A stretch of DNA of 64,000 nt from Archivesica marissinica (taxonomy: Eukaryota > Mollusca > Bivalvia > Venerida > Vesicomyidae), in NCBI GenBank assembly GCA_014843695.1, contig CM026390.1, positions 98,986,362 through 99,050,361 on the forward strand, given 5' to 3'. The first letter of the stretch is position 1. Every line of letters starts with the position of its first letter. The notes under the pieces are model-generated. The model did no database searches. It was not told where the DNA came from and was given only the letters and a program-made list of their open reading frames with translations. Below are positions 10,503 through 63,582 of the stretch, piece by piece. The position numbers and the translations under genes are program-made.

Positions 10503-10688
10503 GTGATTTTCACGGACCACATGCCAGTATCTGTACACTACGTGGCACACTTGGATGAGGTCTGGGTCCTCTGTTGGAACGGTGAAGACGACAAGGGATC
10601 TAAAACTGTTGTGATAATCAGAAACGCCAGCCAGAGAACACAACACCATGCTATACACACACAACCAATAGGAAACAGATTTGATCAG
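10503..10688 (+). CDS. FSTL5: FSTL5-type protein, exon B
   Basis: This 186-base exon is phase 0 at both ends and gives 62 residues. The acceptor is TATTTGCAG ending at 10502 and the donor CAG/GTATGT starts at 10689. It joins exon A so that NPNQ runs into VIFTDHMPVSVHYVAHLDEV. The motif HLDEVWVLCW matches the family pattern H-D-Q-V-W-V-L-S-W, and HTQPIGNRFDQ matches the family H-T-Q-P-V-G-K-Q-F-D segment; these are the strongest identifiers of the gene. The last bases of the exon, with their CCAATAGGAAAC core, and the first intron bases are the source of the 2.8-kb 41-bp array that follows. A damaged copy of the exon end with its own GTAAAT donor survives at 13535-13560. Confidence 0.93.
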
Positions 10689-10702
10689 GTATGTACCCTG
10701 AA

Positions 10703-13545
10703 ATACACACACCCAATTGGAAACATATATATAATCATGTGACATACACACACCCAATAGGAAACATATATATAATCATGTTTAGTTTAATCATATTTTA
10801 TTGCATTCTATATATACAATGTACAATACAAAATCATGTGACATACATACACCCAATAGGAAACATATATATAATCATGTGACATACATACACCCAATAG
10901 GAAACATATATATAATCATGTGACATACATACACCCAATAGGAAACATATATATAATCATGTGACATACATACACCCAATAGGAAACATACCGGTATATA
11001 TAATCATGTGACATACATACACCCAATAGGAAACATATATATAATCATGTGACATACATACACCCAATAGGAAACATACCGGTATATATAATCATGTGAC
11101 ATACATACACCCAATAGGAAACATATATATAATCATGTGACATACATACACCCAATAGGAAACATACCGGTATATATAATCATGTGACATACATACATCC
11201 ACTAGGAAACATATATATAATCATGTGACATACATACACCCAATAGGAAACATACCGGTATATATAATCATGTGACATACATACACCCAATAGGAAACAT
11301 ATATATAATCATGTGACATACATACATCCAATAGGAAACATATATATAATCATGTGACATACATACATCCACTAGGAAACATATATATAATCATGTGACA
11401 TACATACACCCAATAGGAAACATATATATAATCATGTGACATACATACACCCAATAGGAAACATATATATAATCATGTGACATACATACATCCAATAGGA
11501 AACATATATATAATCATGTGACATACATACATCCACTAGGAAACATATATATAATCATGTGACATACATACACCCAATAGGAAACATATATATAATCATG
11601 TGACATACATACACCCAATAGGAAACATATATATAATCATGTGACATACATACATCCAATAGGAAACATATATATAATCATGTGACATACATACATCCAC
11701 TAGGAAACATATATATAATCATGTGACATACATACACCCAATAGGAAACATATATATAATCATGTGACATACATACACCCAATAGGAAACATATATATAA
11801 TCATGTATGAACCATGACATACACACATCCAATAGGAAACATATATATAATCATGTATGAACCATGACATACACACACCCAATAGGAAACATATATATAA
11901 TCATGTGACATACATACACCCAATAGGAAACATATATATAATCATGTGACATACATACACCCAATAGGAAACATATATATAATCATGTGACATACATACA
12001 CCCAATAGGAAACATACCGGTATATATAATCATGTGACATACATACATCCACTAGGAAACATATATATAATCATGTGACATACATACACCCACTAGGAAA
12101 CATATATATAATCATGTGACATACATACACCCAATAGGAAACATATATATAATCATGTGACATACATACACCCAATAGGAAACATACCGGTATATATAAT
12201 CATGTGACATACACACATCCACTAGGAAACATATATATAATCATGTGACATACATACACCCACTAGGAAACATATATATAATCATGTGACATACATACAT
12301 CCAATAGGAAACATATATATAATCATGTGACATACATACATCCAATAGGAAACATATATATAATCATGTGACATACATACACCCAATAGGAAACATATAT
12401 ATAATCATGTTACATACATACACCCAATAGGAAACATACCGGTATATATAATCATGTGACATACATACACCCAATAGGAAACATATATATAATCATGTGA
12501 CATACATACACCCACTAGGAAACATATATATAATCATGTGACATACATACATCCAATAGGAAACATATATATAATCATGTGACATACATACATCCACTAG
12601 GAAACATATATATAATCATGTGACATACATACACCCTATAGGAAACATACCGGTATATATAATCATGTGACATACATACATCCAATAGGAAACATATATA
12701 TAATCATGTGACATACATACACCCAATAGGAAACATACCGGTATATATAATCATGTGACATGCATACATCCACTAGGAAACATATATATAATCATGTGAC
12801 ATACATACACCCAATAGGAAACATACCGGTATATATAATCATGTGACATACATACACCCACTAGGAAACATATATATAATCATGTGACATACATACACCC
12901 AATAGGAAACATATATATAATCATGTGACATACATACATCCACTAGGAAACATATATATAATCATGTGACATACATACATCCACTAGGAAACATATATAT
13001 AATCATGTGACATACATACATCCACTAGGAAACATATATATAATCATGTGACATACATACACCCAATAGGAAACATATATATAATCATGTGACATACATA
13101 CATCCACTAGGAAACATATATATAATCATGTGACATACATACATCCACTAGGAAACATATATATAATCATGTGACATACATACATCCACTAGGAAACATA
13201 TATATAATCATGTGACATACATACATCCACTAGGAAACATATATATAATCATGTGACATACATACATCCACTAGGAAACATATATATAATCATGTGACAT
13301 ACATACACCCAATAGGAAACATATATATAATCATGTGACATACATACACCCAATAGGAAACATATATATAATCATGTATGAACCATGACATACACACATC
13401 CAATAGGAAACATATATATAATCATGTATGAACCATGACATACACACACCCAATAGGAAACATATATATAATCATGTGACATACACACACCCAATAGGAA
13501 ACATATATATAATCATGTGACATACATACACCCAATAGGAACAAA
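10703..13545. repeat. 41-bp array derived from the exon B donor region, about 68 units
   Basis: The unit is ACATACATACACCCAATAGG plus AAACATATATATAATCATGTG; a six-base CCGGTA insert marks a second class. CACACCCAATAGGAAAC is the exon B end (CACACAACCAATAGGAAAC), and four units keep GTATGAACCATGACATACAC, matching the start of the intron (GTATGTACCCTGAAATACAC). The array closes at 13535-13560 with AATTTGAGCAGGTAAATG, a decayed copy of the true exon end and donor. Confidence 0.9.
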
Positions 13546-13603
13546 TTTGAGCAGGTAAATGAACCATGAAATATATACACAGCACTAAAGGTTTAATACA
13601 GAC

Positions 13604-13857
13604 TGGTCAGTAGTCCAGTGGTTAACATGTTGGACCATGAATCCAGGGATCGCAGGTTTGGTCCCCGTCTGACCATATAATATTAAGTCAGATAGGACTG
13701 TAAACTGAAGTCTTGTGTCAGTGCTTTACAACCAGAGGAGACCATGATATATGTCTCTGTCTGTATCATTACATTATCCTCCAAAATCTAAAATGACTAA
13801 TCTCTTCAAGGTGTCGCTCATATGGGCAACCGGTAGCTATAAATAAACGTATAACAC
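13604..13857 (+). mobile_element. tRNA-derived SINE, family A, full-length
   Basis: The head GTAGTCCAGTGGTTAACATG and B box GCAGGTTTGGTCCCC are followed by the family A body in forward orientation, ending at GGGCAACCGGTAGCTATAAA. It lies between the 41-bp donor-derived array and the 71-bp acceptor array in the same intron. Confidence 0.75.
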
Positions 13858-13924
13858 CCACGCACAAATGGCATGAAGCATGCAATATATACTAGCATGA
13901 TTTCAGTAATGACCTGATGTGGGT

Positions 13925-14538
13925 ATGCATGTGGTTCTGACCTCACTCTATGTTACTGTGTTGTAGGTACAAGAGATTTTCCCGGCTGGGGATGTGGGTA
14001 TGCATGAGGTTATGACCTCACTCTATGTTACTGTGTTGTAGGTACAAGAGATGTTCCTGGCTGGGGATGTGGGTATGCATGCGGTTCTGACCTCTATGTT
14101 ACTGTGTTGTAGGTACAAGAGATGTTCCTGGCTGGGGATGTGGGTATGCATGAGGTTCTGACCTCTATGTTACTGTGTTGTAGGTACAAGAGATTTTCCC
14201 GGCTGGGGATGTGGGTATGCATGCGGTTCTGACCTCTATGTTACTGTGTTGTAGGTACAAGAGATGTTCCTGGCTGGGGATGTGGGTATGCATGCGGTTC
14301 TGACCTCTATGTTACTGTGTTGTAGGTACAAGAGATGTTCCTGGCTGGGGATGTGGGTATGCATGCGGTTCTGACCTCTATGTTACTGTGTTGTAGGTAC
14401 AAGAGATGTTCCTGGCTGGGGATGTGGGTATACATGCGGTTCTGACCTCTATGTTACTGTGTTGTAGGTACAAGAGATGTTCCTGGCTGGGGATGTGGGT
14501 ATGCATGCGGTTATGACCTCTATGTTACTGTGTTGTAG
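13925..14538. repeat. 71-bp array of exon C acceptor plus exon start
   Basis: Eight extra units precede the real junction. Extra exon starts GTACAAGAGAT follow TTGTAG at 13967, 14042, 14113, 14184, 14255, 14326, 14397 and 14468; the real one is 14539. Each unit holds about 45 intron bases (GACCTCTATGTTACTGTGTT then GTAG) and 26 exon bases (GTACAAGAGATGTTCCTGGC). The first unit has four extra bases. All decoys keep a usable AG. Confidence 0.95.
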
Positions 14539-14719
14539 GTACAAGATATTTTCCTGGCTGGGGATAGTGAGCTACATCACCCCTACATGTATGGATACAC
14601 CGTGCACAGTGGTCAGCAAGGACTGTTCAAAGTGAACCTGGAGGACAAGAAATATATCCGAGCTGTAGACTTCACTAAATATAGCTGCGTTCCCAAGTCT
14701 GTTGCCTTTGTGCCTATAG
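14539..14719 (+). CDS. FSTL5: FSTL5-type protein, exon C, flanked by copies of its own splice sites
   Basis: This 181-base exon starts in phase 0 after TGTTGTAG (14531-14538) and ends one base into a codon before GTAATT (14720). It encodes VQDIFLAGDSELHHPYMYGY, then LFKVNLEDKKYIRAVDF and KYSCVPKSVAFVPI. It matches the FSTL4/5 stretch that ends in a K-C-V-P-Q-S-x-A motif. Eight further copies of the acceptor plus exon start lie upstream at 71-75-base spacing, and about six further copies of the exon end plus donor lie downstream at exactly 60-base spacing. Only the innermost pair gives an open frame. An acceptor 71 or 142 bases upstream shifts the frame, one 213 bases upstream meets a TGA, and any downstream donor reads through GGT AAT TGA. 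That is why these boundaries were chosen. Confidence 0.93.
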
Positions 14720-15132
14720 GTAATTGAAGCCTCACTAGATATAACTGCATTCCCAAGTCTGTTGCCTTTGTGCCTATAGGTAATTGAAGCCTCACTAGAT
14801 ATAACTGCGTTCCCAAATCTGTTGCCTTTGTGCCTATAGGTAATTGAAGCCTCACTAGATATAACTGCCTTCCCAAGTTTGTTGCCTTTGTGCCTATAGG
14901 TAATTGAAGCCTCACTAGATATAACTGTGTTCCCAAGTCTGTTGCCTTTGTGCCTATAGGTAATTGAAGCCTCACTAGATATAGCTGCGTTCCCAAGTCT
15001 GTTGCCTTTGTGCCTATAGGTAATTGAAGCCTCACTAGATATAACTGCGTTTCCAATTATGTTGCCTTTGTGCCTATATGTAATTGAAGCCTCACTAGAT
15101 ATAACTGTGTTCCCAATTATGTTGCCTTTGTG
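14720..15132. repeat. 60-bp array of exon C end plus donor
   Basis: The unit repeats exactly every 60 bases: GTAATTGAAGCCTCACTAGA, then ATAACTGCGTTCCCAAGTCT and GTTGCCTTTGTGCCTATAG. The donor GTAATT recurs at 14780, 14840, 14900, 14960, 15020 and 15081. Some 48 bases of each unit are exon-derived. Reading through any copy meets GGT AAT TGA. Confidence 0.95.
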
Positions 15133-15602
15133 CCTTGTCTGAGCTTCATGTCCAACATTAGTACACAAAGCTTGTCTACGCTTCATGTCCAACATTAATA
15201 CACAGAGCTTGTCTGCGCTTCATGTCCAACATTAATACACAGAGCTTGTCTGAGCTTCATGTCCAACATTAGTACACAAAGCTTGTCTGTGCTTCATGTC
15301 CAACATTAGTACACAAAGCTTGTCCGAGCTTCATGTCCAACATTAGTACACAAAGCTTGTCTGTGCTTCATGTCCAACATTAGTACACAAAGCTTGTCTG
15401 CGCTTCATGTCCAACATTAGTACACAACGCTTGTCTGCGCTTCATGTCCAACATTAGTACACAAAGCTTGTCTGCGCTTCATGTCCAACATTAGTACACA
15501 AAGCTTGTCTGCGCTTCATGTCCAACATTAGTACACAAAGCTTGTCTGTGCTTCATGTCCAACATTAGTACACAAAGCTTGTCTGCGCTTCATGTCCAAC
15601 AT
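15133..15602. repeat. 37-bp array, about 12 units
   Basis: The unit is CTTGTCTGCGCTTCATGTCC plus AACATTAGTACACAAAG. Related single motifs (GCTTGTCCACGCTTCATCTC) lie at about 15730, in the dispersed repeat that follows, which may be its parent. Confidence 0.93.
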
Positions 15603-16205: not shown

Positions 16206-16277
16206 TTAAACTAACAATGTGTGGGGAGACACACGTTTTTTGCAGTAACAATTTCTATTTTTATTTGTTTGCTACAG

Positions 16278-16478
16278 GAGGGCACTCGCTGGTACAGTGT
16301 GTGAAGAAAACTCCGTATGGAATTACCACCAACATTCTAACCTTGGACTATATCACAGATACCGTCACTGACAATATCACATTGTCATCCGTGCCGTATG
16401 TGTCACCTGATGTCAGCAGTGTCATCATGGTGAATGAGGAGACGGGCAAAATATCAGTTCACCGGATCACAGAAAATG
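16278..16478 (+). CDS. FSTL5: FSTL5-type protein, exon D
   Basis: This 201-base exon has acceptor TTTGCTACAG ending at 16277 and donor AATG/GTAAAT at 16479. Two bases complete the glycine codon begun by exon C, giving VPI-G-GHSLVQCVKKT, and one base is left for exon E. Motifs include the single cysteine of GHSLVQCVKK, YITDTVTDNITLSS and VPYVSPDVSSVIMVNEETGK. The family has V-T-D-S-V and T-P-Y-V-S-P-D-G at the same places, so the reading is secure. The exon's last 31 bases (core ATATCAGTTCACCGGATCAC) are the evident parent of the 31-bp array that fills the next intron. A SINE lies in the intron directly before the exon. Confidence 0.93.
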
Positions 16479-16521
16479 GTAAATAACATTACACCAGATT
16501 ACTGAAAATAGTAAATATCAG

Positions 16522-17160
16522 TAGAGTGGTGGAACCTATGCTCGGCGTATTCCTATGCTCGGCATATTTGTCCATTTTCACCCGTATTTAAAATATTGAT
16601 ATAGTTCTAGGCTAATTTCGCTGACAGAGCTGAAGCATGGTTCAATAGCATTCCGTTGCGTGTATCGGTAGCCTGATGCAACTGTCACGTGACTGGTCCA
16701 GCAGACGAATATAAACAAACAAATCATTGGGAGAATATTTCCACCGAAACTGATCCGGTGTATGAGCAATTCAGGTAGCTATACGAATTTAAAAAATCTA
16801 CCACTAACCCGAAAAATAGTTTCTATACCATTTCTGATTAAGACCAATAAGTGTTTTTGTTCAATGATGTACTATATCAAAATAAGATATTCAACAAGAT
16901 ATGGTGGATAAATAAAAAATGACAAGTACGCCGTGCATAGGTGCCTTGAAGTCTTGATTTCCCCATATAAACGGGTGTCAACCGACACCATTGCGATAGC
17001 TGAATTGAGCAGCAAGGTCACGTGATGAAGCTAAAACTGCTAACAAAAGATTTTTGAAACTTGTTTTCACGACTTAAGATAATATATGGCAAGTGCAATT
17101 AACATTTTATACTGGTTATTATATGTGGGATCTACGCCGAGCATAGGTTCCACCACTCTA
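16522..17160. mobile_element. TIR element with TA target duplication, inserted in the 31-bp array
   Basis: The left end TAGAGTGGTGGAACCTATGC and the right end GCATAGGTTCCACCACTCTA are perfect inverted repeats over about 28 bases, with TA at both edges. There is no coding frame. It splits the exon D-derived array, since array-like sequence flanks it on both sides. Confidence 0.82.
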
Positions 17161-18911
17161 TACACGAAATATCAGATAGTAAATCGCAAATATCAGTGTA
17201 CCAGATCACAGATAATAAATAGTGAATATCTGTACACAAGATTATGAAAAACGGTAAATATCAGTGCACCAAACCACAGATACTATTAAATACCAGAGCA
17301 CCATATTCATAAAAATGGTAAATATCAGTACACCAGAGTACTGAAAATAGGAAATATCAGTGCACCAAATTACATATGATTGCAAAGCTGATTACTTATA
17401 ATGGTGAATATATGTACACCAGATTGCTGAAAATCGTATATAATTATCAGTACACTAGATCACTGAAAATTGTCAATATTTGTACACCAGAATACTGAAA
17501 ATAGTAAGTATCAGTGTGCCAAATCACAGATAATAGTATGTATTAATTCACGAGATTAATGAAAATGGTTAATGTCAGTACACCAGATAACCGCAAATAT
17601 TAATGCACCAGATTACTAAAATTGATATATATAAATACATAAATCACAGATTATAGTAAATATCAGCACACCAGCTCACATATTATAGTAACTATCAGTG
17701 CACCATATTACTTATACTAGTAAATATCAGTACACCAGCTTACAGTAAATATCAGTGCACCAGATGACTGAAAATACTACATAATAAACACCAGATCACA
17801 GATTATAGTAAATATCAGTACACTAGCTCACATACTATAGTAACTATCAGTGCACCATATTACCTAAAATAGTAAATATCAGTACACCAGCTTACAGTAA
17901 ATATCAATACTACATAATAAACACCATATTATAGTAAATATCAGTACACCAGATCACAGTAAATATCAATACACCAGCTTACAGTAAATATCAATACTAC
18001 ATAGTAAACACCAGATCACAGATTATAGTAAATATTAGTACACCAAATCACAAGAAACATTGAATATCAGTACACCAAATCACAGGAAACATTGAATAGC
18101 AGTACACCAAATCACAGGAACCATTGAATATCAGTACACCAAAATCGCAGGAAACCTTGAATATCAGTACACCAGATCACAGGAAACATTGAATATCAGT
18201 ACACCAAAATCGCAGGAACCATTGAATATCAGTACACCAGATCACAGGAAACATTGAATATCAGTACACCAGATCACAGGAAACCTTGGAATATCAGTAC
18301 ACCAGATCACAGGAAACATTGAATATCAGTACACCAGATCACAGGAAACCTTGAATATCAGTACACCAGATCACAGGAAACATTGAATATCAGTACACCA
18401 AAATAGCAGGAACCATTGAATATCAGTACACCAGATCACAGGAAACATTGAATATCAGTACACCAGATCACAGGAAACCTTGGAATATCAGTACACAGGA
18501 AACATTGAATATATCAGTACACCAGATCACAGGAAACATTGAATATCAGTACACCAAAATTGCAGAAAACATTGAATATCAGTACACCAGATCACAGGAA
18601 ACATTGAATATCAGTACACCAAAATCGCAGGAACCATTGAATATCAGTACACCAGATCACAGGAAACCTTGAATATCAGTACACCAGATCACAGGAAACA
18701 TTGAATATCAGTACACCAAAATTGCAGGAACCATTGAATATCAGTACACCAGATCATAGGAAACATTGAATATCAGTACACCAGATCACAGGAAACATTG
18801 AATATCAGTACACCAGATCACAAGAAACATTGAATATCAGTACACCAGATGACAGGAAACATTGAATAGCAGTACACCAAATCACAGGAAACCTTGAATA
18901 TCAGTACACCA
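17161..18911. repeat. about 31-bp array derived from the exon D donor region
   Basis: The unit is GAATATCAGTACACCAGATC plus ACAGGAAACATT. The exon D end reads AAATATCAGTTCACCGGATC then ACAGAAAATG/GTAAAT. The 5' part (17161-18000) is diverged and keeps AATAGTAAATATCAG, closer to the parent; the 3' part (18050-18911) is homogeneous. One partial parent-like copy lies before the MITE at 16479-16521, and a few more units follow the 18912-19061 insertion. Confidence 0.9.
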
Positions 18912-19061
18912 ATGTGCCCGAGGTTATAAAACTTTTCTCAGATCTCAAACTCAAGCTCAAGTGATCTGATTGGTTGATTCTGAGTTTTACTGTAAGCTGA
19001 ACCAATCAGCAGATTGAGACTGAATTTGAGATTGGAGAACAGTTTTATAACCTCCAGGCCT
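18912..19061. mobile_element. short foldback element inserted in one unit of the 31-bp array
   Basis: GAGGTTATAAAACTTTTCTC and, inverted, GTTCTCCAATCTCAAATTC-type sequence form an imperfect inverted repeat of about 38 bases around CAAGTGATCTGATTGGTTGA. The flanks CACCA and GATCACAGG are the two halves of one array unit, so the insertion boundaries are known almost to the base. Confidence 0.75.
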
Positions 19062-19129
19062 GATCACAGGAAACCTTGATGGTAATGGTAATTAACAATA
19101 CACTGTATAGAGAAGATGGACATATCAAT

Positions 19130-21130
19130 ATGTCAGATGACAGAAAACAGTCCATTGAAGTACACAATATCACATAAAACAGTCCATTGAAATACACAAT
19201 ATCACAGAAAACAGTCAATTGAAGTACACAATATCACAGAAAACAGTCAATTGAAGTACACAATATCACAGAAAACAGTCAATTGAAGTACACAATATCA
19301 CAGAAAACAGTCAATTGAAGTACACAATATCACATAAAACAGGCAATGGAAGTACACAGTAGCACAGAAAATAATCCATTGAAGGACACAATATCACAGA
19401 AAACAGTCAATTAAAGTACACAGTAGCACAGAAAATAATCCATTGAAGGACACAATAGCACATAAAACATTCCATTTAAGTACACAGTAGCACAGAAAAC
19501 AGTCAATTGAAATACACAATATCGCAGAGAACAGTCAATTGAAGTACACAGTAGCACAGACAACAGTCCATTGAAGTCCACAATAGCACAGAAAACAGTC
19601 AATTGAAATACACAATAGCACAGAGAACAGTCAATTGAAGTACACAGTAGCACAGACAACAGTCAATTGCAGTACACAGTAGCACAGAAAACAGTCCATT
19701 GAAGTACACAATTGCACAGAGAACAGTCAATTGAAGTACACAATAGCACAGAAAACAGTCCATTGAAGTACACAGTAGCACAGAAAATAATCCATTGAAG
19801 GACACAATATCACAGAAAACAGTCAATTAAAGTACACAGTAGCACAGAAAATAATCCATTGAAGGACACAATAGCACATAAAACATTCCATTTAAGTACA
19901 CAGTAGCACAGAAAACAGTCAATTGAAATACACAATATCGCAGAGAACAGTCAATTGAAGTACACAGTAGCACAGACAACAGTCCATTGAAGTTCACAAT
20001 AGCACAGAAAACAGTCAATTGAAATACACAATAGCACAGAGAACAGTCAATTGAAGTACACAGTAGCACAGACAACAGTCAATTGCAGTACACAGTAGCA
20101 CAGAAAACAGTCAATTGAAATACACAATATCGCAGAGAACAGTCAATTGAAGTACACAGTAGCACAGACAACAGTCCATTGAAGTACACAATTGCACAGA
20201 GAACAGTCAATTGAAGTACACAATAGCACAGAAAACAGTCCATTGAAGTACACAATAGCACAGAAAACAGTCAATTGAAGTACACAATAGCACAGAAAAC
20301 ATTCCATTGAAGTACACAGTAGCACAGAGAATAGTCAATTGAAGTACACAATAGCACAGAAAACAGTCAATTGAAGTACACAATAGCACATAGAACAGTC
20401 AATTGAAGTACACAATAGCACAGGAAACAGTCAATTGAAGTACACAATAGCACAGAGAACAGTCAATTGAAGTACACAATAGCACAGGAAACAGTCAATT
20501 GAAGTACACAGTAGCACAGACAACAGTCCATTGAAGTACACAATAGCACAGAGAACAGTCAATTGAAGTACACAATAGCACAGAGAACAGTCAATTGAAG
20601 TACACAATTGCACAGAGAACAGTCAATTGAAGTGCACAATAGCACAGAAAACAGTCAATTGAAGTACACAGTAGCACAGAAAACAGTCAATTGAAATACA
20701 CAATTGCACAGAGAACAGTCCATTGAAGTACACAATTGCACAGAGAACAGTCAATTGAAGTACACAATAGCACAGAAAACAGTCAATTGAAATACACAAT
20801 AGCACAGAAAACAGTCAATTGAAGTACACAATAGCACAGAGAACAGTCAATTGAAGTACACATTAGCACAGACAATAGTCAATTGAAGTACACAGTAGCA
20901 CAGACAATAGTCCATTGAAGTACACAATTGCACAGAGAATAGTCAATTGAAGTGCACAGAGAACAGTCAATTGAAGTACACAGTAGCACAGACAACAGTC
21001 AATTGAAGTACACAATTGCACAGAGAACAGTCAATTGAAGTACACAATAGCACAGAAAACAGTCAATTGAAGTACACAATGGCACAGAAAACATTCTATT
21101 GAAGTACACAATAGCACAGAGAACAGTCAG
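19130..21130. repeat. 32-bp array, about 62 units, with a 416-base block duplication
   Basis: The unit is AGTACACAATAGCACAGAAA plus ACAGTCAATTGA. The block near 19411-19659 recurs almost unchanged at 19827-20075, 13 units later. Its first units resemble the preceding 31-bp array only weakly. Confidence 0.93.
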
Positions 21131-24195: not shown

Positions 24196-24360
24196 GTGAT
24201 ATAGTACACCAGTTTGATGTGACGGTCAGCTCCAGTGTTGGCAAGGTGGTCTTCCATAAGGCCAGATACAGTCATGGTTACGACATCTACCTGACCTCTA
24301 CAGAGTATCCACTTATCTATTCTGTTAGCTTGGAGACCGGCAAAGTGGACACTATAAAGG
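24196..24360 (+). CDS. FSTL5: FSTL5-type protein, exon E
   Basis: This 165-base exon has acceptor GTGTTTTAAAG ending at 24195 and donor AAGG/GTAGGT at 24361. Two bases finish the glycine codon started in exon D and one base is left over, so it joins exons D and F in phase. It encodes GDIVHQFDVTVSSSVGKVVF, then YSHGYDIYLTS and YSVSLETGKVDTIKG. The family shows G-E-I-Q, Q-Y-N-I-Y and E-L-S-S-G-K-V motifs in the same order. The polypyrimidine tract is weak: TTTGTGTTTTAAAG. It is followed after 136 bases by the 10-kb 22/26-bp array. Confidence 0.92.
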
Positions 24361-24496
24361 GTAGGTTGACACCAAACTGTAGGAGCTTCTAAAACTATTA
24401 AGGCTAGATTATTGTTATGACTAAACATGGAAAAAATAGCAATCTGGCTTATACTTACAATAAAATATTCAATAAAGAAAGCAACATGCAAATGCA

Positions 24497-27400
24497 GTAC
24501 ATGCCCACAATGGGATGAGTACATGCCCACAATGGGATGAGTACATGCCCACAGTGGGATGAGTACATGCCCACAATGGGATGAGTACATGCCCACAATG
24601 GGATGGATGAGTACATGCCCACAATGGGATGAGTACATGCACACAATGGGATGGATGAGTACATGCCCACAATGGGATGGATGAGTACATGCCCACAATG
24701 GGATGGATGAGTACATGCCCACAATGGGATGAGTACATGCCCACAATGGGATGGATGAGTACATGCCCACAATGGGATGGATGAGTACATGCCCACAATG
24801 GGATGAGTACATGCCCACAATGGGATGGATGAGTACATGCCCACAATGGGATGGATGAGTACATGCCCACAATGGGATGAGTACATGCCCACAATGGGAT
24901 GGATGAGTACATGCCCACAATGGGATGAGTACATGCCCACAATGGGGTGGATGAGTACATGCCCACAGGGGATGAGTACATGCCCGCAATGGGATGAGTA
25001 CATGCCCACAATGGGATGGATGAGTACATGCTCACAATGGGATGGATGAGTACATGCCCACAATGGGATGAGTACATGCCCACAATGGGATGAGTACATG
25101 CACAATGGGGTGGATGAGTACATGCCCACAATGGGATGAGTACATGCCCACAATGGGATGGATGAGTACATGCCTACAATGGGATGGATGAGTACATGCC
25201 CACAATGGGATGAGTACATGCCCACAATGGGGTGGATGAGTACATGCCCACAATGGGGTGGATGAGTACATGCCCACAATGGGATGAGTACATGCCCACA
25301 ATGGGATGGATGAGTACATGCCCACAATGGGATGGATGAGTACATGCTCACAATGGGATGGATGAGTACATGCCCACAATGGGATGAGTACATGCCCACA
25401 ATGGGGTGGATGAGTACATGTCCACAATGGGATGAGTACATGTCCACAATGGGATGGATGAGTACATGCCCACAATGGGGTGGATGAGTACATGTCCACA
25501 ATGGGATGGATGAGTACATGCCCACAATGGGATGGATGAGTACATGTCCACAATGGGATGAGTACATGCCCACAATGGGATGAGTACATGTCCACAATGG
25601 GATGGATGAGTACATGTCCACAATGGGATGAGTACATGTCCACAATGGGATGGATGAGTACATGCCCACAATGGGATGGATGAGTACATGCCCACAATGG
25701 GATGGATGAGTACATGCCCACAATGGGATGGATGAGTACATGCCCACAATGGGATGGATGAGTACATGCCCACAATGGGATGGATGAGTACATGCCCACA
25801 ATGGGATGAGTACATGCCCACAATGGGATGGATGAGTACATGTCCACAGTGGGATGGATGAGTACATGCCCACAATGGGATGGATGAGTACATGCCCACA
25901 ATGGGGTGGATGAGTACATGCCCACAATGGGGTGGATGAGTACATGTCCACAATGGGATGGATGAGTACATGCCCACAATGGGATGGATGAGTACATGCC
26001 CACAATGGGATGAGTACATGCCCACAATGGGGTGGATGAGTACATGCCCACAATGGGGTGGATGAGTACATGTCCACAATGGGATGGATGAGTACATGCC
26101 CACAATGGGATGAGTACATGCCCACAAGGGGGTGGATGAGTACATGCCCACAATGGGGTGGATGAGTACATGTCCACAATGGGATGGATGAGTACATGCC
26201 CACAATGGGATGGATGAGTACATGCCCACAATGGGATGTATGAGTACATGCCCACAATGGGATGGATGAGTACATGTCCACAATGGGATGGATGAGTACA
26301 TGCCCACAATGGGATGTATGAGTACATGCCCACAATGGGATGAGTACATGCCCACAATGGGATGGATGAGTACATGCCCACAATGGGGTGGATGAGTACA
26401 TGCCCACAATGGGATGAGTACATGCCCACAATGGGATGTATGAGTACATGCCCACAATGGGATGGATGAGTACATGCCCACAATGGGATGAGTACATGCC
26501 CACAATGGGATGAGTACATGTCCACAATGGGATGTATGAGTACATGCCCACAATGGGATGGATGAGTACATGCCCACAATGGGATGGATGAGTACATGTC
26601 CACAATGGATGGATGAGTACATGCCCACAATGGGATGGATGAGTACATGCCCACAATGGGATGTATGAGTACATGCCCACAATGGGATGGATGAGTACAT
26701 GCCCACAATGGGATGGATGAGTACATGTCCACAGTGGGATGAGTACATGCCCACAATGGGATGGATGAGTACATGCCCACAATGGGATGGATGAGTACAT
26801 GCCCACAATGGGATGGATGCGTACATGCCCACAATGGGGTGGATGAGTACATGCCCACAATGGGATGGATGAGTACATGCCCACAATGGGATGGATGAGT
26901 ACATGCTCACAATGGGATGAGTACATGCCCACAATGGGATGAGTACATGCCCACAATGGGGTGGATGAGTACATATCCACAATGGGATGGATGAGTACAT
27001 GCCCACAATGGGATGGATGAGTACATGCCCACAATGGGATGTATGAGTGCATGCCCACAATGGGATGTATGAGTACATGCCCACAATGGGATGGATGAGT
27101 ACATGCCCACAGTGGGATGAGTACATGCCCACAATGGGATGGATGAGTACATGCCCACAATGGGATGGATGAGTACATGCCCACAATGGGATGGATGAGT
27201 ACATGCCCACAATGGGATGGATGAGTACATGCCCACAATGGGGTGGATGAGTACATGCCCACAATGGGGTGGATGAGTACATGCCCACAATGGGATGTAT
27301 GAGTACATGCCCACAATGGGATGGATTAGTACATGCCCACAATGGGATGAGTACATGTCCACAATGGGATGAGTACATGCCCACAATGGGATGTATGAGT

Positions 27401-30400
27401 ACATGCCCACAATGGGATGGATGAGTACATGCCCACAATGGGATGGATGAGTACATGTCCACAATGGATGGATGAGTACATGCCCACAATGGGATGGATG
27501 AGTACATGTCCACAATGGGATGGATGAGTACATGCCCACAATGGGATGGATGAGTACATGCTCACAATGGGATGAGTACATGCCCACAATGGGATGGATG
27601 AGTACATGTCCACAATGGGATGGATGAGTACATGCCCACAATGGGATGAGTACATGCCCACAATGGGATGGGTGAGTACATGTCCACAATGGGATGGATG
27701 AGTACATGCCCACAATGGGATGGATGAGTACATGTCCACAATGGGATGGATGAGTACATGCCCACAATGGGATGATTACATGTCCACAATGGGATGTATG
27801 AGTACATGTCCACAATGGGATGGATGAGTACATGCCCACAATGTGATGGATGAGTACATGCCCACAATGGGATGAGTACATGTCCACAATGGGATGGATG
27901 AGTACATGTCCACAATGGGATGGATGAGTACATGCCCACAATGGGATGTATGAGTACATGCCCACAATGGGATGTATGAGTACATGCCCACAATGGGATG
28001 GATGAGTACATGCTCACAATGGGATGAGTACATGCCCACAATGGGATGGATGAGTACATGTCCACAATGGGATGAGTACATGCCCACAATGGGGATGGAT
28101 GAGTACATGCTCACAATGGGATGAGTACATGCCCACAATGGGATGTATGAGTACATGCCCACAATGGGATGGATGAATACATGCCCACAATGGGATGGAT
28201 GAGTACATGTCCACAATGGGATGGATGAGTACATGCCCACAATGGGATGGATGAGTACATGCCCACAATGGGATGGATGAGTACATGCCCACAATGGGAT
28301 GGATGAGTACATGTCCACAATGGGATGGATGAGTACATGTCCACAATGGGATGGATGAGTACATGCCCACAATGGGATGAGTACATGCCCACACTGGGAT
28401 GGATGAGTACATGTCCACAATGGGATGGATGAGTACATGCCCACAATGGGATGGATGAGTACATGTCCACAATGGGATGGATGAGTACATGCCCACAATG
28501 GGATGATTACATGTCCACAATGGGATGTATGAGTACATGTCCACAATGGGATGGATGAGTACATGCCCACAATGTGATGGATGAGTACATGCCCACAATG
28601 GGATGAGTACATGTCCACAATGGGATGGATGAGTACATGTCCACAATGGGATGGATGAGTACATGCCCACAATGGGATGTATGAGTACATGCCCACAATG
28701 GGATGAGTACATGCCCACAATGGGGTGGATGAGTACATGTCCACAATGGGATGGATGAGTACATGCCCACAAATGGGATGGATGAGTACATGTCCACAAT
28801 GGGATGGATGTGTACATGCCCACAATGGGATGGATGAGTGCATGCTCACAATGGGATGAGTACATGCCCACCATGGGATGGATGAGTACATGCCCACAAT
28901 GGGATGGATGAGTACATGTCCACAATGGGATGAGTACATGCCCACAATGGGATGGATGAGTACATGTCCACAATGGGATGGATGAGTACATGTCCACAAT
29001 GGGATGGATGAGTACATGCCCACAATGGGATGGATGAGTACATGCCCACAATGGGATGGATGAGTACATGCCCACAATGGGATGGATGAGTACATGCCCA
29101 CAATGGGATGGATGAGTACATGCCCACAATGGGATGGATGAGTACATGCCCACAATGGGATGGATGAGTACATGCTCACAATGGGATGAGTACATGTCCA
29201 CAATGGGATGGATGAGTACATGCTCACAGTGGGATGAGTACATGCCCACAATGGGATGGATGAGTACATGCCCACAATGTGATGGATGAGTACATGTCCA
29301 CAATGGGATGAGTACATGCCCACAATGGGATGGATGAGTACATGTCCACAATGGGATGAGTACATGCCCACAATGGGATGGATGAGTACATGTCCACAAT
29401 GGGATGGATGAGTACATGCCCACAATGGGATGAGTACATGCCCACAATGGGATGAGTACATGCCCACAATGGAATGAGTACATGCCCACAATGGGATGGA
29501 TGAGTACATGCCCACAATGGGATGAGTACATGCCCACAATGGAATGAGTACATGCCCACAATGGGATGGATGAGTACATGCCCACAATGGGATGTACATG
29601 CCCACAATGGGATGGATGAGTACATGTCCACAGTGGGATGGATGAGTACATGCCCACAATGGGATGGATGAGTACATGCCCACAATGGGGTGGATGAGTA
29701 CATGCCCACAATGGGATGAGTACATGCCACAATGGGATGGATGAGTACATGCCCACAATGGGATGGATGAGTACATGCCCACAATGGGATGAGTACATGC
29801 CCACAATGGGGTGGATGAGTACATGCCCACAATGGGGTGGATGAGTACATGACAATGGGATGGATGAGTACATGCCCACAATGGGATGAGTACATGCCCA
29901 CAATGGGGTGGATGAGTACATGCCCACAATGGGGTGGATGAGTACATGTCCACAATGGGATGGATGAGTACATGCCCACAATGGGATGGATGAGTACATG
30001 CCCACAATGGGATGATGAGTACATGCCCACAATGGGATGGATGAGTACATGCCACAATGGGATGGATGAGTACATGCCCACAATGGGATGGAGTACATGC
30101 CCACAATGGGATGGTACATGCCCACAATGGGATGGACATGCCCACAATGGGATGTATGCCCACAATGGGATGAGTACATGCCCACAATGGGATGATGAGT
30201 ACATGCCCACAATGGGATGGATGAGTACATGCCCACAATGGTACATGCCCACAATGGGATGTACATGCCACAATGGGATGACATGCCCACAATGGGATGG
30301 ATGAGTACATGCCCACAATGGGATGGATGAGTACATGCCACAATGGGGATGAGTACATGCCCACAATGGGATGGATGAGTACATGCCCACAATGGGATGG

Positions 30401-36032: not shown

Positions 36033-36238
36033 ACATACGAGAGCCAGACACGGAGCTATTTCTACCCTGGTTCAAAAATGGGCGACCTATTGTATCTGGG
36101 GGCATCTTCAGCGACTTTCTAGGGACGACAGCCATGTCATCAATGTTGATATTGAATGGAAAACAGCATACCATACAGTGTGATTATAGAGAACTTGAAA
36201 ACCCCTCTGTTGTGGCGTATACACACCTTAGGTCATAG
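36033..36238 (+). CDS. FSTL5: FSTL5-type protein, terminal coding exon with stop
   Basis: The acceptor is CAACTATTTTCAG ending at 36032. Two bases complete the aspartate codon begun in exon E and the frame runs to TAG at 36236-36238. It encodes PDTELFLPWFKNGRPIVSGG, FSDFLGTTAMSSMLILNGKQ and a short tail ending VVAYTHLRS. The family C-terminus has a P-W-x-x-x-x-R motif, then S-G-L-F-G-Q-Y-L-x-T-P-x-x-x-S-L-F-I-L-D-G, then one cysteine and a stop about 20 residues later. The match in order and length marks this as the natural C-terminus and not a truncation. From exon A the window encodes 405 residues, roughly the C-terminal half of a family protein. The 11.7-kb intron before it is almost entirely minisatellite. 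Confidence 0.92.
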
Positions 36239-49155: not shown

Positions 49156-50670
49156 TGTTCCTGCTGCAACACAGTAACCCGGTGTCCTGCTGCAGCACAG
49201 TAACCCGGTGTCCTGCTGCAGCACAATAACCTGGTGTTCTGCTGCAGCACAGTAACCTGGTGTCCTGCTGCAGTACAGTAACCTGGTGTCCTACTGCAGC
49301 ACAGTAACCTGGTGTCCTGCTGCAGCACAGTAACCTGGTGTCCTGCTGCAGCACAGTAACCTGGTGTCCTACTGCAGCACAGTAACCTGGTGTCCTGCTG
49401 CAGCACAGTAACCTGGTGTCCTGCTGCAGCACNNNNNNNNNNNNNNNNNNNNNNNNNNNNNNNNNNNNNNNNNNNNNNNNNNNNNNNNNNNNNNNNNNNN
49501 NNNNNNNNNNNNNNNNNNNNNNNNNNNNNNNNNNNNNNNNNNNNNNNNNNNNNNNNNNNNNNNNNNNNNNNNNNNNNNNNNNNNNNNNNNNNNNNNNNNN
49601 NNNNNNNNNNNNNNNNNNNNNNNNNNNNNNNNNNNNNNNNNNNNNNNNNNNNNNNNNNNNNNNNNNNNNNNNNNNNNNNNNNNNNNNNNNNNNNNNNNNN
49701 NNNNNNNNNNNNNNNNNNNNNNNNNNNNNNNNNNNNNNNNNNNNNNNNNNNNNNNNNNNNNNNNNNNNNNNNNNNNNNNNNNNNNNNNNNNNNNNNNNNN
49801 NNNNNNNNNNNNNNNNNNNNNNNNNNNNNNNNNNNNNNNNNNNNNNNNNNNNNNNNNNNNNNNNNNNNNNNNNNNNNNNNNNNNNNNNNNNNNNNNNNNN
49901 NNNNNNNNNNNNNNNNNNNNNNNNNNNNNNNNNNNNNNNNNNNNNNNNNNNNNNNNNNNNNNNNNNNNNNNNNNNNNNNNNNNNNNNNNNNNNNNNNNNN
50001 NNNNNNNNNNNNNNNNNNNNNNNNNNNNNNNNNNNNNNNNNNNNNNNNNNNNNNNNNNNNNNNNNNNNNNNNNNNNNNNNNNNNNNNNNNNNNNNNNNNN
50101 NNNNNNNNNNNNNNNNNNNNNNNNNNNNNNNNNNNNNNNNNNNNNNNNNNNNNNNNNNNNNNNNNNNNNNNNNNNNNNNNNNNNNNNNNNNNNNNNNNNN
50201 NNNNNNNNNNNNNNNNNNNNNNNNNNNNNNNNNNNNNNNNNNNNNNNNNNNNNNNNNNNNNNNNNNNNNNNNNNNNNNNNNNNNNNNNNNNNNNNNNNNN
50301 NNNNNNNNNNNNNNNNNNNNNNNNNNNNNNNNNNNNNNNNNNNNNNNNNNNNNNNNNNNNNNNNNNNNNNNNNNNNNNNNNNNNNNNNNNNNNNNNNNNN
50401 NNNNNNNNNNNNNNNNNNNNNNNNNNNNNNNNTAACCTGGTGTCCTGCTGCAGCACAGTAACCTGGTGTCCTGCTGCAGCACAGTAACCTGGTGTCCTGC
50501 TGCAGCACAGTAACCTGGTGTCCTACTGCAGCACAGTAACCTGGTGTCCTACTGCAGCACAGTAACCTGGTGTCCTACTGCAGCACAGTAACCTGGTGTC
50601 CTACTGCAGCACAGTAACCTGGTGTCCTACTGCAGCACAGTAACCTGGTGTCCTGCTGCAGCACAGTACA
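49156..50670. repeat. 26-bp array interrupted by an assembly gap
   Basis: The unit is CAGCACAGTAACCTGGTGTC plus CTGCTG, with CTACTG variants. It runs into and out of the N block in the same phase class, so the gap is most likely filled by the same array. Confidence 0.93.
49433..50432. other. assembly gap of exactly 1000 N
   Basis: The round length shows a placeholder of unknown true size placed inside the 26-bp array. Frames that cross it are meaningless. Confidence 0.98.
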
Positions 50671-52059: not shown

Positions 52060-52291
52060 TCAGAAGTAACTCTCTTTTGATTGGTCACTACTGTTACTGA
52101 TAACCTCTATCTCAGACCACCGTGACTTTGGTATTCTTGAGTCTCCTCGGGCAGAAAGTGCTGACCTTGAACTCCTGCCATCGTACCGCAGCGGATTCAT
52201 AGCCAGCGCAAATGCTTTAAAACTGGAACGAAGGTCACTTCGGTGCACTGGAAATCTGATTCGGTATCGTTCACCTTTGTTATTCAGTTTT
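52060..52291 (-). CDS. cytoplasmic tail and stop of the EGF-containing membrane protein
   Basis: The acceptor TTTTGCAG is followed by one base finishing the arginine codon from the transmembrane exon, then 76 codons and TGA at 52062-52060. The tail begins KLNNKGERYRIRFPVHRSDL, is rich in Arg and Ser (SSRSALSARGDSRIPKSRW), and ends EVISNSSDQSKESYF. No kinase, PDZ-ligand, ITAM or NPxY motif is visible. The serine and arginine clusters would allow phosphorylation, which is inference. The phase match with the 60454-60544 exon and the acceptor support it as the last coding exon. A TTTATT (AATAAA on the - strand) at 52050-52055 lies only a few bases past the stop, very close for a poly(A) signal. 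Confidence 0.78.
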
Positions 52292-57080: not shown

Positions 57081-60008
57081 ATCACATCACAACACTCACA
57101 TACATCACATACATCACAACACTCACATACATCACAACACTCATATACATCACAACACTCATATACATCACAACACTCACATACATCACAACACTCACAT
57201 ACATCACATACATCACAACACTCACATACATCACAACACTCACATACATCACAACACTCACATACATCACATACATCACAACACTCACACATCACAACAC
57301 TCACACACATCACAACACTCACATACATCACAACACTCACATACATCACATACATCACAACACTCACATACATCACAACACTCACACACATCACAACACT
57401 CACATACATCACATCACTCACATACATCACAACACTCACATACATCACAACACTCACATACATCACAACACTCACATACATCACAACACTCACATACATC
57501 ACATACATCACAACACTCACATACATCACATACATCACAACACTCACATACATCACAACACTCACATACATCACAACACTCACATACATCACAACACTCA
57601 CATACATCACAACACTCACATACATCACAACACTCACATACATCACATACATCACAACACTCACATACATCACAACACTCACATACATCACAACACTCAC
57701 ATACATCACAACACTCACATACATCACATACATCACAACACTCACATACATCACAACACTCACATACATCACAACACTCACATACACCACATACATCACA
57801 ACACTCACATACATCACAACACTCACATACATCACAACACTCACATACATCACATACATCACAACACTCACATACATCACATACATCACAACACTCACAT
57901 ACATCACAACACTCACATACATCACATACATCACAACACTCACATACATCACAACACTCACATACATCACATACATCACAACACTCACATACATCACAAC
58001 ACTCACATACATCACAACACTCACATACATCACAACACTCACATACACACATACATCACAACACTCACATACATCACATACATCACACCACTCACATACA
58101 TCACAACACTCACATACATCACAACACTCACATACATCACAACACTCACATACATCACAACACTCACATACATCACATACATCACATCACTCACATACAT
58201 CACAACACTCACATACATCACAACACTCACATACATCACAATACTCACATACATCACAACACTCACATACATCACATACATCACAACACTCACATACATC
58301 ACAACATCACAACACTCACAACATCACAATACTCACATACATCACAACACTCACATACATCACATACATCACAACACTCACATACATCACATACATCACA
58401 ACACTCACAACACTCACAACACTCACATACATCACAACACTCACATACATCACATACATCACATACATCACAACACTCACATACATCACATACATCACAA
58501 CACTCACATACATCACAACACTCACATACATCACAGCACTCACATACATCACAACACTCACATACATCACAATACTCACATACATCACATACATCACAAC
58601 ACTCACATAAATCACATACATCACAACACTCACATACATCACATACATCACAACACTCACATACATCACACCATTCACATACATCACAACACTCACATAC
58701 ATAACAACACTCACATACATCACATACATCACAACACTCACATACATCACAACACTCACATACATCACAACACTCACATACATCACATACATCACAACAC
58801 TCACATACATCACAACACTCACATACATCACATACATCACAACACTCATATACATCACATACATCACAACACTCACATACATCACAACACTCACATACAT
58901 CACAACACTCACATGCATCACAACACTCACATACATCACAACACTCACATACATCACAACACTCACATACATCACAACACTCACATACATCACATACATC
59001 ACAACACTCACATACATCACAACACTCACATACATCACAACACTCACATACATCACAACACTCACACCACTCACACACATCACATACATCACAACACTCA
59101 CATACATCACATACATCACAACACTCACATACATCACATACATCACAACACTCACATACATCACATACATCACAACACTCACATACATCACAACACTCAC
59201 ATACATCACATACATCACAACACTCACATACATCACAACACTCACATACATCACAACACTCACATACATCACATACATCACAACACTCACACATCACAAC
59301 ACTCACACACATCACAACACTCACATACATCACAACACTCACATACATCACATACATCACAACACTCACATACATCACAACACTCACATACATCACATAC
59401 ATCACAACACTCACATAAATCACATACATCACAACACTCACATACATCACATACATCACAACACTCACATACATCACAACACTCACATACATCACAACAC
59501 TCACATACATCACAACACTCACATACATCACATACATCACAACACTCACATACATCACAACACTCACATACATCACAACACTCACATACATCACATACAC
59601 TCACATACATCACAACACTCACATACATCACATACATCACAACACTCATATACATCACATACATCACAACACTCACATACATCACAACACTCACATACAT
59701 CACAACACTCACATACATCACAACACTCACATACATCACAACACTCACATACATCACAACACTCACATACATCACAACACTCACATACATCACATACATC
59801 ACAACACTCACATACATCACATACATCACAACACTCACATACATCACAACACTCACATACACACATCACATACATCACAACACTCACATACATCACATAC
59901 ATCACAACACTCACATACATCACAACATCACAACACTCACATACATCACATACATCACAACACTCACATACATCACATACATCACATACATCACAACACT
60001 CACATACC
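57081..60008. repeat. 2.9-kb 18-bp array
   Basis: The unit is CATACATCACAACACTCA, with CATACATCA inserts of nine bases that create 27-base units. Both lengths are multiples of three, so frames are open on both strands for hundreds of codons; there is no coding support. Confidence 0.95.
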
Positions 60009-60019
60009 TTGCATACATC

Positions 60020-60450
60020 AAATGAGAGATTATCTCTTAAACTACTAAAGTTAGCATGCCCAAATGAATGGTTATCTCTTAAACTACTAAAGTTAGCATG
60101 CCCAAATGAAGGGTTATCTCTTAAACAACTAAAGTTAGCATGCCCAAATGAATGGTTATCTCTTAAACTACTAAAGTTAGCATGCCCAAATGAAGGGTTA
60201 TCTCTTAAACAACTAAAGTTAGCATGCCCAAATGAATGGTTATCTCTTAAACTACTAAAGTTAGCATGCCCAAATGAAGGGTTATCTCTTAAACAACTAA
60301 AGTTAGCATGCCCAAATGAATGGTTATCTCTTAAACTACTAAAGTTAGCATGCCCAAATGAATGGTTATCTCTTAAACTACTAAAGTTAGCATGCCCAAA
60401 TGAATGGTTATCTCTTAAACGACTAAAGTTAGCACAAATAAATGAAAGGT
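60020..60450 (-). repeat. 42-bp array derived from the transmembrane exon donor
   Basis: On the - strand each unit reads GTTTAAGAGATAACCATTCA, TTTGGGCATGCTAACTTTAGTA. The true junction reads CTTTAAGAG/GTAACCTTTCA and TTTATTTGTGCTAACTTTAG. All ten or so copies have AT where the exon's donor has GT. CTACTAAAG and CAACTAAAG units alternate, giving an 84-base super-period. Confidence 0.9.
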
Positions 60451-60453
60451 TAC

Positions 60454-60544
60454 CTCTTAAAGTGGAGAAAGATGAAGATTGCTACAACCAAGAAGATAAC
60501 AAGAGACACTCCTCCTATAGCAGCCACTGTACCAACATCAATAC
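60454..60544 (-). CDS. transmembrane exon of the EGF-containing membrane protein
   Basis: This 91-base exon follows GATGTTTCAG (acceptor at 60545-60546) and ends AAGAG/GTAACC. Two bases finish the arginine codon begun in the EGF exon, 29 codons follow, and two bases (AG) pair with the first base (A) of the terminal exon to give arginine. The peptide is a textbook single-pass segment: VGTVAAIGGVSLVIFLVV, then AIFIFLHFK with basic residues as a stop-transfer signal. The small-residue GxxxG-like start (AAIGGV) is common in type I receptors. It sits between the EGF and tail exons, so the N-terminus is outside. The donor region seeded the 42-bp array at 60020-60450. In those copies the donor GT reads AT. 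Confidence 0.85.
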
Positions 60545-60545
60545 C

Positions 60546-60804
60546 TGAAACATCACAGCAGTATGCTACCACATCGCTTTTAACGCAACACATAAAACTG
60601 TCATGCATAGAATAAATAACAACATATACGAGGGCCCATCAATAATTTAATGAGCTAATTTCACATCGCTTTCACATAGAGTAATGAAATTTTGTATGTT
60701 CAAAGAATAATCATTCTCCAACTAATGCAGCATGTGCCGACATTGATGACATTAATTAATGACGAAATATCAATATTCTAACGTCACATCAAAGAGCGTT
60801 CATT
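60546..60804. other. intron sequence and mariner leader
   Basis: From the transmembrane exon acceptor to the start of the 38-bp array. It contains the mariner-like terminus at 60627 and no other feature. Confidence 0.45.
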
Positions 60805-61565: not shown

Positions 61566-61589
61566 TGATAAAGTTTGATACATTACTCG

Positions 61590-61986
61590 GAAAATGTTTC
61601 TCAGACATTCGGGAGGATTTGCATACAGTTTATGGAATGGTGCTATTTCCAAGTGGGTAAATCGCTTTAAGGACGGTAGAGAAACAACCGAAGATGATAA
61701 GCATACTGGCAGGCCAGTGACTATTGCAAATGAAATGAAAGTGGCTGAAATTCAGGGATAGAAGAGTAACTGTTGAAAATGTTGAGGGACAATTTGGTAT
61801 TTCGTTTAGTACAAGTCTAATAAGCTTGGAATGCGCTGTGTTTTAGCAAGATGGGTACCGAGCTTGCTGCTTCTGAATCTAATGGGGGAAATGGTCAAGA
61901 GGTGCCGCGAATACTGCCAACTGTACAACGATGAGGGTGATGCCTTTCTCGATCGAGTGGTTGAGACATGGACTCACTTTTTTTGA
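61590..61986 (+). pseudogene. mariner-type transposase, frameshifted remnant
   Basis: Three blocks in different frames resemble a mariner (IS630-Tc1-mariner) transposase. Bases 61651-61761 encode KWVNRFKDGRETTEDD then GRP and a stop; this is the linker after the N-terminal helix-turn-helix region, with its RFK-GRES-EDD-GRP motif. Around 61763-61830 RVTVENVEGQFGIS is the second HTH region. Bases 61834-61986 give RCVLARWVP, CREYC and DAFLDRVVETWT, corresponding to the ARWVPRLL and DFLDRIVTGDETW region. The catalytic part after the first aspartate is missing. A mariner-like 5' end (TACGAGGGCCCATCAATAA) is at 60627. The element lies in the intron between the EGF and transmembrane exons and is inactive. 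Confidence 0.82.
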
Positions 61987-62007
61987 TCTGGAAAACTATC
62001 ATGTATA

Positions 62008-63466
62008 AGACATGTTCTTACTACATACATGATAGATACGGACACTGCAGCCCCTTATAGCAACTGTATGTAGGGTCCCCAGACATGTTCTTACTACATA
62101 CATGATAGATACGGACATTGCAGCCCCTTATAGCAACTATATGTAGGGCCACCAGACATGTTCTTACTACATACATGATAGATACGGACACTGCAGCCCC
62201 TTATAGCAACTATATGTAGGGCCACCAGACATGTTCTTACTATATACATGATAGATACGGACATTGCAGCCCCTTATAGCAACTATATGTAGGGTCCCCA
62301 GACATGTTCTTACTACATACATGATAGATACGGACACTGCAGCCACTTATAGCAACTATATGTAGGGTCCCCAGACATGTTCTTACTACATACATGATAG
62401 ATACGGACACTGCAGCCCCTTATAGCAACTATATGTAGGGTCCCCAGACATGTTCTTACTACATACATGATAGATACGGACACTGCAGCCCCTTATAGCA
62501 ACTATATGTAGGGTCCCCAGACATGTTCTTACTACATACATGATAGGTACGGACACTGCAGCCCCTTATAGCAACTATATGTAGGGCCACCAGACATGTT
62601 CTTACTACATACATGATAGATACGGACACTGCAGCCCCTTATAGCAACTATATGTAGGGTCCCCAGACATGTTCTTACTACATACATGATAGATACGGAC
62701 ACTGCAGCCCCTTATAGCAACAATATGTAGGGTCTCCAGACATGTTCTTACTACATACATGATAGATACGGACATTGCAGCCCCTTATAGCAACTATATG
62801 TAGGGTCCCCAGACATGTTCTTACTACATACATGATAGATACGGACACTGCAGCCCCTTATAGCAACTATATGTAGGGTCCCCAGACATGTTCTTACTAC
62901 ATACATGATAGATACGGACACTGCAGCCCCTTATAGCAACTATATGTAGGGTCCCCAGACATGTTCTTACTACATACATGATAGATATGGACATTGCAGC
63001 CCCTTATAGCAACTATATGTAGGGTCCCCAGACATGTTCTTACTACATACATGATAGATACGGACACTGCAGCCCCTTATAGCAACTGTATGTAGGGCTT
63101 CCAGACATGTTCTTACTACATACATGATAGATACGGACACTGCAGCCCCTTATAGCAACTATGTGTAGGGTCCCCAGACATGTTCTTACTACATACATGA
63201 TAGATACTGACACTGCAGCCCCTTATAGCAACAATATGTAGGGTCTCAAGACATGTTCTTACTACATACATGATAGATACGGACACTGCAGCCCCTTATA
63301 GCAACAATATGTAGGGTCACAAGACATGTTCTTACTACATACATGATAGATACGGACACTGCAGCCCCTTATAGCAACTGTATGTAGGGCCACCAGACAT
63401 GTTCTTACTACATTCATGATAGATACGGACACTGCAGCCCCTTATAGCAACTACATGTTCTTACTA
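62008..63466 (-). repeat. 73-bp array derived from the EGF exon donor, about 20 units
   Basis: On the - strand each unit has TATAGTTGCTATAAGGGGCT, GCAGTGTCCGTATCTATCAT, GTATGTAGTAAGAACATGTC. The exon end reads ATGTAGTTGCCATGACGGAT, GAAGGGCTGCAGTGTCAAGA, then TATATCAC/GTATGTAGTAAGAACATGT. About 45 exon bases and the donor GTATGTAG are included, and nearly all copies keep the GT. Confidence 0.92.
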
Positions 63467-63471
63467 CATAC

Positions 63472-63582
63472 GTGATATATCTTGACACTGCAGCCCTTCA
63501 TATCCGTCATGGCAACTACATATTAGGTTTCCTTCTGTGTCCTTGCTACATATACCATTCTCACACACGCCATCACAGATAT
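63472..63582 (-). CDS. EGF-like domain exon of a single-pass membrane protein
   Basis: On the - strand the acceptor TTATTTTAG is followed by 111 bases, phase 1 to phase 1, and a GTATGTAG donor at 63471-63464. The exon encodes one EGF-like module with six cysteines spaced C-x3-C-x4-C-x9-C-x1-C-x8-C. Recognisable pieces are ICDGVCENGIC and CSCHDGYEGLQC, the latter with the usual G-Y-x-G turn before the sixth cysteine. EGF-like modules act extracellularly, usually in binding or spacing. The exon joins the transmembrane exon in phase. Its last 45 or so bases and the donor are the parent of the 73-bp array in the following intron. Earlier exons lie beyond the window, so the full ectodomain is unknown. 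The family cannot be named from one EGF module. Confidence 0.85.

Follow-up and report, generated by a model that had tools for sequence, protein, structure and literature searches.

Tandem repeats that span exon/intron boundaries have been described in amphioxus as 'mirages', at both 5' and 3' boundaries (PMC3087553; this and all other papers are cited here from excerpts). They are present in Adh3 and in the globins BflGb6 and BflGb9 (PMC3087553), to which PGBD5 and troponin C have been added (PMC3902484). According to the same excerpts, splicing is apparently undisturbed by these repeats, their length is unstable, and the creation of introns from them has been proposed (PMC3087553). The arrays described here lie in a 64-kb stretch of contig CM026390.1 of the bivalve Archivesica marissinica (positions 98,986,362 to 99,050,361; hereafter the window, numbered from its first base), which contains two convergent genes: one encoding a follistatin-related-protein-5-like (FSTL5-like) product on the + strand, and one encoding an EGF/transmembrane protein on the - strand. 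At five of the seven splice donors in this window, and at one acceptor clearly (14538) and another weakly (24195), the repeat unit spans the exon/intron boundary, and a tandem, minisatellite-like array lies in the intron beside the true boundary. We therefore regard these junction arrays as very probably mirage-type minisatellites.

The comparison with described systems shows both likeness and difference. In amphioxus, the globin mirages measure 150-160 bp, and the boundaries of the clusters escape homogenisation (PMC3087553, PMC3902484). The present arrays belong to a mollusc, occur at five of seven donors within 64 kb, reach about 64 copies and fill about 75% of an intron; they are also donor-biased, whereas amphioxus mirages are reported at both boundaries (PMC3087553). 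Cases of intron gain in ATP2A1, fission yeast and potato RdRp likewise involve tandem duplication around AG/GT (PMC4974935, in excerpt), but the present units hold intron bases that are lacking at the start of the downstream exon, and there is no sign of a new intron. Intronic arrays are also present in intron 3 of an abalone TSSK1-like gene (27-bp unit; PMC6905558) and in the first introns of earthworm metallothionein genes (PMC12783039), but in the excerpted accounts their units are not tied to a splice junction. The initial annotation treated a bias towards exon 3' ends as not known to have been described; in view of the amphioxus mirages, the notion that arrays of this type are undescribed is not supported (PMC3087553, PMC3902484). 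What the present arrays add is therefore their phylum, their density and their bias towards donors. Among the matches listed in the open-licence PubMed Central literature, judged by title and start of abstract, none reports a mirage in a mollusc or a donor bias. The present arrays look like a mollusc case of the mirage kind, larger and donor-biased.

Junction copies and the anatomy of the arrays

Sixteen junctions were examined (seven donors and nine acceptors). All were located, with the first intron bases exactly as initially annotated. All statistics given below are post hoc and come from the one window that revealed the pattern. For each junction with an intact intron, a 60-mer (30 exon and 30 intron bases) was aligned to the remainder of its own intron and compared with 200 shuffles. 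The donors at 10689 (score 73), 14720 (118) and 16479 (63) on the + strand, and at 63471 (68) and 60453 (41) on the - strand, all found copies that were matched by 0/200 shuffles; these are the five donors at which the initial annotation had noted arrays. Its two exceptions, 3578 and 24361, also stand, with no junction copy in their own introns (score 19 each, equalled by 150/200 and 50/200 shuffles, respectively). The test covers seven of the nine acceptors, the introns upstream of 3296 and 63583 being cut by the window edge. Acceptor 14538 gives a clear match (score 99) and acceptor 24195 a weak one (score 34), in agreement with the initial annotation; both are matched by 0/200 shuffles, and the weak score is to be read against 14 junction-spanning tests in all. 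At the other five tested acceptors the scores are unremarkable, being reached by 16 to 179 of the 200 shuffles.

An exon-only version of the test, applied to all 16 junctions, gave 0/200 at donors 10689, 14720, 16479 and 63471. The same holds for two acceptors, 14538 and 24195, and the results for acceptors 10502 (3/200) and 63583 (5/200) are borderline. At donor 60453, whose copies include no more than 8 exon bases, this version fails (its score is reached by 178/200 shuffles), so the call at this donor depends on the junction-spanning test. Arrays found by Tandem Repeats Finder (TRF) overlap, or begin within 13 bases of, the five copied donor junctions, and the junction copies run in the sense of transcription in both genes.

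One array follows exon E2 (10503..10688, + strand) at donor 10689. It extends over 10689..13575 (ends approximate) in 41-bp interior units, with 66 anchors including the exon. The commonest interior forms read CAT/GTGACA (the slash marks the boundary), which is a weaker donor than CAG/GTATGT (3.2 vs 9.9 with an approximate position matrix); the 12 commonest forms, which were viewed singly, account for 48 of the 66 anchors. The last copy, near 13535-13560, retains the exon end and CAG/GTA, and its alignment with the true junction extends through about 60 columns, with a score of 60. Exon end and CAG/GTA are thus preserved at both edges of the array, which indicates that the seed duplication spanned the junction.

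Exon E3 (14539..14719, +) has its own junction arrays on either side. On the acceptor side (13916..14565, +), 71-bp units combine about 43 intron and 28 exon bases, and the final copy is the true acceptor with the start of E3. On the donor side (14672..15135, +), there are 7.7 copies of a 60-bp unit with 48 exon and 12 intron bases, and 6 of the 8 anchored copies, counting the exon, retain TATAG/GTAATT unchanged. Exon E4 (16278..16478, +), with its donor at 16479, is followed by arrays that extend over 16449..21129 (+): two blocks of 32-bp units (16449-16523 and 17247-18911) and a family at 19140-21129 that is related to this unit but has diverged from it (unit score 46 vs at most 37 in 2000 shuffles). 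GTAAAT is kept in the copy nearest the exon, and TTGAAT takes its place in the commonest later forms. This donor array is interrupted at 16522-17160 by an element of 639 bases whose terminal inverted repeats are perfect over 28 bp, and which appears to be like a miniature inverted-repeat transposable element.

On the - strand, the array at donor 63471 of the EGF-repeat exon (array 62008..63471) has 73-bp units with about 28 exon bases, and GTATGT is preserved in 18 of 20 anchored copies. The array at donor 60453 of the transmembrane-segment exon (array 60019..60461, -) has 42-bp units of 8 exon and 34 intron bases, and the donor GT is changed to AT in all 10 copies. At 59990-60012 (-), the last copy of this array continues into GCAAG/GTATGTGAG, a donor-like sequence at which the next array (18-bp unit, 57087-60007) apparently starts. 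Junction-derived sequence makes up roughly 75, 27, 52, 50 and 5% of the five introns (limits set by eye), and the copies within the junction arrays differ in substitutions.

Two donors have no junction-derived array. After exon E1 (3297..3577, +; donor 3578), a 19-bp array (3609-3796) begins 31 bases downstream. After exon E5 (24196..24360, +; donor 24361), a 10-kb array (24496-34628; 26-bp unit, 408 copies) begins 135 bases past the donor and occupies most of the last intron of the FSTL5-like gene; the junction at 24361 has no match inside it. The start of E5 (24196-24220) and its acceptor, which gave the weak score of 34, resemble the E4-derived array; this exon start was possibly taken over from that array, or the resemblance is due to chance.

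The arrays therefore consist of junction copies in a definite phase, their seeds lay at the junctions, and the duplications are younger than the introns, since the units include intron bases. A short tandem duplication that spanned an existing exon/intron boundary would leave a spare exon end and donor at the start of the intron. Such a duplicate would be tolerated because the original upstream junction still functions and the copies are intronic. Expansion and homogenisation of the spare copy could then have followed, as with the other minisatellites in a genome so rich in repeats. Expansion is general here, as tandem arrays make up 43,985 of 64,000 bases (69% of the window); TRF gave 88 rows, which reduce to 47 non-redundant arrays of about 40 families, and unique, non-array sequence amounts to 19.1 kb. 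The donor that is spliced is probably the first, upstream one. Reading in frame into the intron meets a stop codon 1-5 bases in at four of the five copied donors, ahead of the first copy, whereas at 10689 the stop comes after 51 bases, close to the position of the first copy; splicing at a later copy would thus mostly truncate the protein.

Donors, acceptors and rival explanations

The donor matches were compared with a chance model in which the units of the 40 array families were placed randomly on unique sequence, wholly exonic seeds being barred (200,000 runs). Random seeding predicts matches at 0.43-0.54 of the seven donors, and five or more are reached in at most 3e-5 of runs, depending on the overlap required. 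When seeding was confined to the genes (16 and 5 families, respectively, with the diverged 19140 family merged), 0.55 donors were expected and the probability of at least five was 3e-5. The initial annotation had stressed that two genes on opposite strands share the pattern, and each gene by itself does show the excess: three of five donors in the FSTL5-like gene (P 0.0027) and two of two in the - strand gene (P 0.0073). Acceptors remain at background, with one clear and one weak match against 0.54-0.68 expected of nine, or 0.55 of eight within genes. None of the seven donors is more than 135 bases away from its nearest array (median 10), compared with medians of 273 and 278 for random unique genic positions, although junctions inside arrays were scored 0 and random positions all lay outside arrays, which favours the junctions. 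The acceptor-to-array distance (median 258) is no different from background, and donors and acceptors differ in this respect (Mann-Whitney p 0.006).

Tentatively, then, duplications may arise or persist at donors more often than in the rest of the introns, and the excess may not be due only to chance in a chosen window. Against such a bias, the numbers come from the same window in which the pattern was noticed, and the direct contrast of donor and acceptor matches among the 16 junctions is marginal (Fisher p 0.035, or 0.13 if the weak acceptor is counted). Two points weigh against an account by harmless duplication and expansion. Tolerance alone predicts a background seed rate at donors, and not the nine- to twelvefold excess, which therefore calls for a bias in initiation or retention, or for a lucky window. 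In addition, the donor copies fare unevenly, being kept (14720, 63471), kept near the exon and then replaced by TTGAAT (16479), weakened (10689) or destroyed (60453), and no uniform selection on them is visible.

One source of such a bias, already suggested in the initial annotation with R-loops or nicks as examples, could be a process tied to 5' splice sites, such as R-loops, nicks, stalled transcription or U1-bound nascent RNA, which would initiate duplications at donors. Five matched donors against 0.43-0.55 expected, the recurrence of the pattern in the two oppositely oriented genes, each time in the transcribed sense, and the background level at acceptors all speak for it. Moreover, the 33 array families that lie away from junctions show no clear enrichment of donor-like nonamers (P below 0.05 for 5 of them, either strand being allowed, with 3.2 expected, by the approximate matrix), so that the donor sequence as such, as a DNA motif, does not explain the excess. 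This process nevertheless seems doubtful to us, in view of a single post hoc window with seven donors, two of them without an array, of the marginal donor-acceptor contrast, and of amphioxus mirages found at both boundaries (PMC3087553). It is likewise rather unlikely that donors are preferred birthplaces of minisatellites in the broader sense, whereby a process coupled to transcription or splicing would make duplications across the 3' ends of exons and would have reconstructed a large part of this animal's introns from copies of their own 5' splice sites. A serious possibility is that chance and tolerance suffice: arrays would arise everywhere, those spanning a donor would be harmless, those internal to exons and many of those spanning an acceptor would be purged, and an unusual window was picked. 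The crowding of 40 families on 19 kb of unique sequence, with about one family per 400-530 bases within the two genes, is consistent with this, as is the fact that the finding was chosen after reading, from an unknown number of windows. However, the probability of about 3e-5 was obtained with a model that already bars wholly exonic seeds, and the excess is seen in single genes.

Two further explanations are very improbable. Introns may be gained by tandem duplication of an AGGT-bearing exon segment (the Rogers model), in which case the arrays would mark newborn introns; the exon-derived AG/GT copies beside donors do resemble published cases (PMC4974935, in excerpt), but the units hold intron bases that are absent from the start of the next exon. 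Intron gain by exon duplication was rejected because, in ungapped comparisons of seven introns, the intron start and the next exon start are identical at only 3-8 of 20 bases; the intron end and the previous exon end, identical at 5-11 of 20 bases, also count against it. Equally improbable is that exon ends were misassigned or that the arrays arose as artefacts of assembly. In its favour, the assembly of long arrays is difficult, another array of the window contains a gap, and there is no close homologue by which the exon ends of the - strand gene could be fixed. On the other hand, the joins of the FSTL5-like gene agree with those expected from a related protein (P0001), the copies bear different substitutions, and the inverted-repeat element interrupts one array. 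Mirage-type minisatellites thus remain the explanation that we favour for the junction arrays themselves.

The two genes and their surroundings

Six + strand exons, which remain in frame through to the stop codon in the terminal exon E6 (36033..36238, +), encode the FSTL5-like product. Its relative P0003 (Mizuhopecten) is named follistatin-related protein 5, and P0001 is 64% identical to the window protein across the entire 339-residue query. Four of the five exon joins fall in gap-free alignment to P0001, and the fifth lies inside a 404-residue alignment to the same protein. A protein tree was built from the window protein together with 18 relatives out of the 106 found; it contains neither amphioxus nor annelids, and long branches are flagged in it. 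The window protein clusters with P0001 and P0004 (100/100), followed by a scallop pair (91/85) and then a cephalopod; these six rows are supported at 100/99. Because this set includes two named molluscs, a molluscan source is most likely on the basis of this 18-relative tree, and amphioxus, considered in view of the mirages, was rejected as the source. Among the prokaryote genomes and viral contigs scanned for related loci (47 and 93 candidate stretches, respectively), none encodes a relative, and a search of solved structures gave no significant match (best E 0.38).

The - strand gene comprises three exons whose joins are in frame: the EGF-repeat exon (63472..63582, -), with the six-cysteine EGF spacing recognised by eye and Pfam EGF hits below cut-off; the transmembrane-segment exon (60454..60544, -), whose segment was also seen by eye; and a terminal exon (52060..52291, -), which encodes a basic tail and ends with TGA. 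Its exon ends are not backed by any close homologue.

Elsewhere in the window, a gap of 1000 N (49433-50432) lies inside a 26-bp minisatellite. A tRNA-like match at 4214-4269 (-) scores 30.4 in Rfam against a gathering threshold of 29, where ARAGORN finds no tRNA gene; it is perhaps a tRNA-derived short interspersed nuclear element. The open frame at 61579-61761 presumably resembles a helix-turn-helix fragment of a mariner-type transposase.

Significance for intron evolution

Should the excess at donors extend to the whole genome, splice donors would act as mutagenic sites from which repeats are seeded, and, as exon-derived arrays record the origin of each event, the starts of tandem duplications would become directly countable. 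Mirages would also be shown in an animal phylum distant from amphioxus, and the arrays would point to a possible way for introns to lengthen, namely through copies of their own boundary.

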